From: a virus
Virus record (IMG/VR): IMGVR_UViG_3300046751_000391
Location: 1-34,617 of that record
DNA length: 34,617 nucleotides
Strand: one strand, 5' to 3'
In this document: positions 24,853 through 25,090 of the stretch, piece by piece
Layout of the letters: every line of letters begins with the position of its first letter
Numbering within the stretch: the first letter of the stretch is position 1
Made by a program: the position numbers and the translations under genes
Notes under the pieces: generated by a model
Seen by the model: only the letters and a program-made list of their open reading frames with translations
What the model was told of the DNA's origin: nothing
Databases searched by the model: none

Positions 24853-24897
24853 TGTCCCAGTTTGTCCCAGGTTTCTGGCTACCAACGCCTACCAACG
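24853..24897 (+). repeat. Paired direct repeats left of attP (likely integrase arm sites)
   Basis: TGTCCCAG at 24853-24860 and 24863-24870 (10-base period), then CTACCAACG at 24879-24887 and 24889-24897 (10-base period). Tandem short repeats spaced by one helical turn beside a tRNA-derived core are the usual look of arm-type binding sites for tyrosine integrases and excision factors. TGTCCCAG recurs as a pair on the right side (25072, 25083). Confidence 0.65.
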
Positions 24898-24951
24898 GTA
24901 ACCAAAACACCCCAAAAACTCTGGTTTTTAACGCTTGAATACCTGTTAAAA

Positions 24952-25000
24952 CCGCCCTTTCACGGCGGCAACAGGGGTTCGAATCCCCTACGGGATGCCA
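24952..25000 (+). other. attP core: 3' part of a tRNA-Glu(UUC) gene
   Basis: The 49 bases start with an anticodon stem-loop (CCGCC-CTTTCAC-GGCGG, anticodon TTC), then a 4-base variable region, T-arm AGGGG-TTCGAAT-CCCCT, acceptor strand ACGGGAT, discriminator G and CCA at 24998-25000. The 5' half (acceptor, D-arm) is absent, so this is not a gene but a piece that rebuilds the 3' end of the host tRNA after integration. It sits 158 bases upstream of the integrase gene, as expected for attP. Confidence 0.92.
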
Positions 25001-25030
25001 GCCTACAACCCAAGCATAGCCTCAAAAACA

Positions 25031-25068
25031 AGCCCTCGGCCTTAACTGGCTGGGGGCTGTTTTTTTGT
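25031..25068 (+). terminator. Strong terminator 30 bases after the attP core
   Basis: AGCCCTCGGCC (25031-25041), loop TTAACTG, GGCTGGGGGCT, then GTTTTTTTG. The 11-pair stem has two G-T pairs. In the phage circle it ends the rightward late operon. In the prophage it would lie just downstream of the rebuilt tRNA-Glu and shield the integrase from tRNA-promoter transcription. Confidence 0.88.
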
Positions 25069-25071
25069 GTT

Positions 25072-25090
25072 TGTCCCAGTTTTGTCCCAG
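25072..25090 (+). repeat. TGTCCCAG pair right of attP
   Basis: TGTCCCAG at 25072-25079 and 25083-25090, 11-base period, mirroring the pair at 24853/24863 on the other side of the core. Probable arm-type sites for the integrase; they also lie just before the integrase promoter region, so the bound protein could control its own gene. Confidence 0.65.

Follow-up and report, generated by a model that had tools for sequence, protein, structure and literature searches.

A putative SAR116 phage attachment site whose arm repeats vary in concert with the integrase N-terminal domain and recur beside a terS-like gene

Across a group of marine phages, the arm repeats of the attachment site (attP) vary in concert with the N-terminal domain of the integrase (Int), independently of the targeted tRNA gene, and a third repeat pair, matching the resident arm type, lies beside the putative packaging gene. 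The window analyzed here is the whole of one IMG/VR virus record (IMGVR_UViG_3300046751_000391, 34,617 nt). On sequence grounds, we consider it highly probable that it carries the attP of a SAR116 phage whose Int binds the arms through its N-terminal domain, with separately exchanged modules and a type-matched third pair (the binding and the role of the third pair are what we infer from the pattern). The attP taken alone is ordinary, and the lambda-type division of labor behind the switching is already established; the greatest novelty lies in the third pair beside the packaging gene, which matches the arm type. That arms and N-terminal domain switch together, independently of the tRNA module, makes this a clear example from nature of integrases evolving by modules. 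We found no report of such switching in the literature searched, a weak negative given its thin coverage of subscription papers.

The site is a real attP of a temperate marine phage and reads, from left to right, as the end of the late genes, a TGTCCCAG pair, a tRNA-Glu(UUC) core, a terminator, a second TGTCCCAG pair, and int. The left arm pair (24853..24870, plus strand; copies starting at 24853 and 24863, a 10-nt step) lies directly 3' of the stop (24850) of the last late gene (phrog_23735; 24587..24850, plus strand), a position kept in relatives with other repeat sequences. The 49-nt core (CCGCCCTTTCACGGCGGCAACAGGGGTTCGAATCCCCTACGGGATGCCA; 24952..25000, plus strand) equals the 3' part of tRNA-Glu(UUC) from the anticodon arm to CCA, as an earlier sequence-only reading had claimed, and opens with the inverted repeat CCGCC-CTTTCAC-GGCGG, the anticodon stem-loop. 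By comparison with tyrosine integrases that use tRNA anticodon loops, the 7-bp CTTTCAC between CCGCC and GGCGG (24957..24963, plus strand) is the presumed crossover region. The right arm pair (25072..25090, plus strand; copies starting at 25072 and 25083) has an 11-nt step, and the two steps agree with the 10-11 nt period that had been proposed. The pairs had also been described as flanking the core symmetrically: they do lie on both sides, but as direct repeats in a single orientation and not as mirror images, with gaps to the core of 81 and 71 nt. This four-copy arrangement arose in 0 of 4000 dinucleotide shuffles of the 520 bp upstream of int. The int leader further contains a palindrome (TGACTTTTTGTGTCA, TGAC-N7-GTCA; 25107..25121, plus strand), similar in relatives, which is a possible repressor operator.

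Because the ends of the 34.6-kb contig (1-469 and 34149-34617) share 469 bp at 98.3% identity, it is probably a complete, circularly permuted phage genome of about 34.1 kb; the shared stretch ends some 10 bp short of the third arm pair, and two strains may therefore be mixed at the join. ARAGORN detected no complete tRNA in the window, which fits a core that is only part of one, and Rfam gave no match at gathering scores. A megablast comparison of 12 kb with cultured phages returned tRNA-Glu fragments and nothing else. In the early region, genes for a C5 methylase (30739-31616) and a PAPS-reductase-like protein (31837-32653) are variable cargo, in stretches without similarity in the near relative G002.

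Int (415 aa; 25159..26406, plus strand) is a tyrosine integrase by its PF00589 match (E 1.9e-17, above the cut-off), phrog_1 assignment, and structure model, and its catalytic residues (R239, K275, R354, H378, and Y388) are invariant across 13 relatives. Residues 1-60 (25159..25338, plus strand) form a putative arm-specificity module consisting of a three-strand sheet and a helix: the AlphaFold model (mean pLDDT 75) places strands at 6-9, 14-17, and 28-31 and a helix at 34-50, followed by a low-confidence linker (52-60) and the core-binding helices. In the model, this N-terminal domain is set apart from the core-binding and catalytic part, as in lambda-type heterobivalent integrases, and the best Foldseek matches of the model were the Tn1549 and lambda (1z1b) integrases. 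No Pfam family scored above the cut-off for the N-terminal domain, and no second copy of it was found in these phage genomes.

Searching IMG/VR with Int, a degenerate core, and an Ala-type Int yielded more than 80 loci, and many of these relatives share the attP layout while differing in sequence; the arm layout was recovered de novo in 37 distinct integrases. Within one phage, the same repeat occupies all four arm places with few single-base deviations. Among relatives there are about 12 repeat types, including TGTCCCAG, TGGTCACG, TGTTATAG, CAGTCCAG, TAGTCCAG, and TGTTGTAG, as well as TGGTTAAG, TGTTAAAG, CACTACAA, TTGGCAAC, TTGGGTAC, and others. Several loci (L105, upstream of 4001; L112-L117, L120, L121, and L123-L126) have three copies on one side, 11 nt apart; the three-copy side is the right arm in L105 and L123-L126 and the left arm in most CAGTCCAG Asp phages. 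The core is mostly derived from tRNA-Glu, otherwise from tRNA-Ala(TGC) or tRNA-Asp(GTC), and T-stem variants of the Glu core carry changes in both strands of the stem, the pattern expected of host tRNA genes.

Arm type followed the N-terminal domain and not the rest of the protein. Among the 37 distinct integrases, distances over Int residues 1-33 were correlated with arm-repeat distances (Mantel r 0.73, p<=5e-4), compared with r 0.11 for the rest of Int; the correlation stood at 0.725 when the rest of Int was controlled for and at 0.65 (p 2e-4) when the set was collapsed to 20 representatives. A profile in 20-residue windows gave r values of 0.63, 0.61, and 0.54 over residues 1-60 and <=0.22 beyond, and the boundary of the association coincides with the modeled linker. 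The tRNA core, for its part, was the same in the nearest neighbor by Int C-terminal part in 37/37 cases. Two comparisons illustrate the opposite kinds of exchange: L069 and L090 have nearly the same C-terminal part (99% identity) but different arms (CAGTCCAG versus TGTCCCAG) and N-terminal domains only 52% identical, whereas the window phage and L105 share arms and 94% of the N-terminal domain but have C-terminal parts at 29% identity and different tRNA cores. With arms tracking residues 1-60 and the core tracking the remainder, the arm and target modules therefore swap independently.

Such covariation is what arm binding by the Int N-terminal domain would predict. The right arm sits next to the N-domain codons, within 70-90 bp of int, so its share of the association could reflect linkage; stronger evidence comes from the left arms and the remote third pair. 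The window phage and G002 have different arm types in otherwise similar DNA (91.6% identity over 24501-25084, 89.5% from 25275, and 95.4% across terS). Fine comparison of their att and terS regions revealed three divergent stretches within 90-100% identical DNA: one at the left arm (about 100 bp), one running from the right arm into int as far as codon 38 (about 200 bp), and one behind terS (about 75 bp). Three sites changed separately within shared DNA argue for selection for matching over plain linkage.

We propose that Int would cross over in the anticodon loop of tRNA-Glu(UUC), that the 49-nt core would restore the tRNA 3' end, and that the phage terminator would replace the host's own 3' end signal while shielding int from transcription. 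The N-terminal sheet domain would bind the four TGTCCCAG arm sites, and the core-binding and catalytic domains would read the tRNA core. An exchange of the arm repeat at all four sites would then go along with an exchange of the N-terminal domain, and a change of tRNA core with a change of the Int C-terminal part.

A further TGTCCCAG pair, missing from the sequence-only reading, is located on the minus strand at 479..497 (two copies, 11-nt step), just past the stop of a putative terS-like gene (4..477, plus strand) recognized by its position directly before the late operon and by its HTH. On the circle it is about 9-9.8 kb from attP. Across relatives, 49 of 55 terS loci have a pair after terS with exactly the 11-nt step and the same repeat vocabulary. 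The third pair is of the phage's own arm type in 10 of the 11 contigs holding both (permutation p 1e-5), or 7/8 after related contigs were merged (p 4e-4). In whole contigs, exact own-type pairs occur at the left arm, at the right arm, and at terS, and elsewhere there are degenerate matches only; some arms have three overlapping copies. The single mismatch, G017 (L216), combines TGTCCCAG arms with a TGGTCACG/TGGCCACG terS pair in which one copy is decayed, perhaps following a recent arm swap. Predicted RNA folding at the third pair of the window was not significant (z 0.15).

The repressor, TerS, the Xis-like protein, and ERF were weighed as proteins that might bind the repeats but were discarded, as none follows arm type; the repressors and TerS proteins of the window phage and G024 are 100% and 99% identical, respectively, despite different arms, and a link between ERF type and arm type in a DNA comparison disappeared when more contigs were included. 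This leaves Int as the best candidate, and, because the third pair follows the same arm code, Int very probably binds it. Packaging often starts in or near terS. Together with the action reported for the Tn916 integrase at oriT (see below), this makes control of packaging or late transcription the most likely role for the third pair, a suggestion by analogy that we offer tentatively, in which bound Int might act as a restraint. A more specific version we hold to be less likely than not: Int bound at its type-matched third site could hold back packaging or late transcription until the phage excises (or during integration), a phage analog of the reported Tn916 Int-oriT link, and the arm modules could be private codes that keep co-infecting relatives apart and determine which integrase-less islands a phage can move.

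The third pair could instead be functionless, a scar of an old att site or recombination carried along with its module. The G017 mismatch with its decayed copy would suit such an origin, as would the lack of a core beside the third pair, but the exact spacing is kept in nearly all terS loci and the pair matches the resident Int type, while neither terS nor the late DNA next to it sorts by type. We therefore regard a scar as unlikely.

The intrinsic terminator (25031..25066, plus strand) comprises an 11-pair hairpin (25031-25058; 8 GC) and 7 T, beginning 30 nt past CCA as had been claimed; it is the single terminator-like site before int on the plus strand, and the predicted fold of 25001-25070 has z = -3.6. 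Behind Glu, Ala, or Asp cores alike, every listed att site but L008 retains a terminator 27-34 nt beyond CCA, and the hairpin energies range from -13.5 to -23.9 kcal/mol. In L008 (2415-2530), the terminator and the right arm pair are both absent between core and int, indicating either a defective phage or an assembly fault. The prediction that the terminator would end the restored host tRNA transcript is well supported by this conservation, and its ending the late operon in the phage circle is plausible. Relatives with att sites at other tRNAs, which the sequence-only reading had named as evidence against itself, do exist, and they leave it unrefuted because the terminator moves with them. It is improbable, slightly more so than a scar at the third pair, that the terminator is a captured host tRNA 3' flank and not a phage module. 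Three SAR116-order genomes (L233-L235) do have a similar terminator behind tRNA-Ala without arms, either an old remnant or a source of the phage terminator. Yet one terminator family stands behind Glu, Ala, and Asp cores, 26 of 29 host-order tRNA-Ala genes with readable flanks have no such terminator, and in non-lysogens the exact 49-mer match stops at CCA.

It is very unlikely that the repeats are operators of another regulator (the repressor or the Xis-like protein) associated with the Int N-terminus by linkage, since, although repeats also occur away from attP (479-497), the right arm is close to int, and HTH proteins are encoded at 26530-26904 and 29230-30015, the near-invariant repressor and TerS of the window phage and G024, the independence of Xis-like and ERF genes from arm type, the three separate short stretches switched between the window phage and G002, and the end of the association at the Int domain boundary all speak against it.

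A host in the SAR116 clade is very likely. Exact copies of the 49-mer are present in 31 genome contigs; most are from SAR116/Puniceispirillum and other Alphaproteobacteria, yet Francisella, Ferrimonas, and Glaciecola have it as well, and alone it is no proof of host; the core is thus a weaker host marker than the sequence-only reading had suggested, although a phage-type terminator follows it in SAR116 contigs only. An intact tRNA-Glu followed by a phage-type terminator was found in 6 of 136 host-order genomes (reversed-pattern control, 0), most of them with arm remnants; the hairpin in G130 has decayed. Together with the layout in about 40 relatives, these SAR116 remnants support the claim of an attP at tRNA-Glu with arm sites. 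The genome search proposed alongside that claim returned exact 49-base matches in tRNA-Glu genes but no intact prophage with int in the 136 host-order genomes (Int search; method control, 4/4). Exact TGTCCCAG pairs were likewise absent from host-order genomes, and the window's own arm type therefore has no integrated remnant in that set. An element seems to have collapsed in G126 (L276, around 1501-1800), where a terminator, a TGTTATAG pair, and another Asp core come after a tRNA-Asp. As a whole, the sequence-only interpretation is partly supported.

Integrated elements also include islands without an integrase. In CIMEs, the cargo at a tRNA gene is bounded by attL and attR, and the element has no integrase of its own. 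In the SAR116 cell AG-390-P06 (G039), a 5.6-kb segment lies between two tRNA-Glu cores, one at 6112 with a TGGTCACG right arm and the other with a TGGTCACG left pair at 11577-11690. G039 had no Int match, and the segment is CIME-like in having attL and attR of one type without an integrase; its cargo is an operon for an ABC transporter, of polyamine type as read from the sequence. The surrounding locus (L236, G039:C38:5400-15334) holds two tandem integrase-less elements at tRNA-Glu, with arm types TGGTCACG and GGATAC and cargo comprising the ABC-transporter operon plus genes for racemase-like and serine-hydrolase-like proteins. A smaller element of about 1.3 kb at tRNA-Glu in AG-901-J20 (L036/L225) has TGTTATAG arms and contains a methyltransferase-like ORF; its second core is degenerate. 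Phages with the corresponding arm type may be able to mobilize such islands in trans.

The group offers a natural series of around a dozen arm sequences with matching N-terminal domains on interchangeable, target-specific integrase bodies, which would help in learning how such domains read DNA. A coupling of integration with packaging or late expression becomes directly testable through the type-matched site beside the packaging gene. The sharing of arm types with integrase-less SAR116 islands points to a route by which metabolic cargo could move in an abundant marine clade.

The system resembles lambda (PMC4880445) in having a small N-terminal domain, putatively for arm sites, a linker, and core-binding and catalytic domains for the core, with arm sites flanking the core on both sides. 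It differs in its direct-repeat pairs (10-11 nt step), tRNA core, and built-in terminator, in arm sequences that vary in concert among close relatives, and in the distant third pair. For Tn916, Int was reported to be active at oriT (Rocco and Churchward 2006, as cited in PMC6499999 and PMC9371924, which question the role). The likeness lies in an integrase reported at a DNA-transfer origin besides the element ends; the predicted extra site of the phage is instead beside a packaging gene. In the autoregulation of the KplE1 integrase IntS at attL, integrase bound near a promoter can repress transcription (PMC2951348); there it acts at attL only, whereas in the phage the distant pair lies where the late operon begins. 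The Tn916 end terminator T1 is an insulator separating element genes from host transcription (PMC11658703), and the phage terminator is also near an element end; it differs in standing directly behind a rebuilt tRNA and, in the circle, downstream of the late operon. Finally, as in the CIMEs and tycheposons named in PMC5704250 and PMC10803314, respectively, the SAR116 islands are att-flanked cargo at a tRNA gene without an integrase, but they bear arm repeats of the types found in this phage group.
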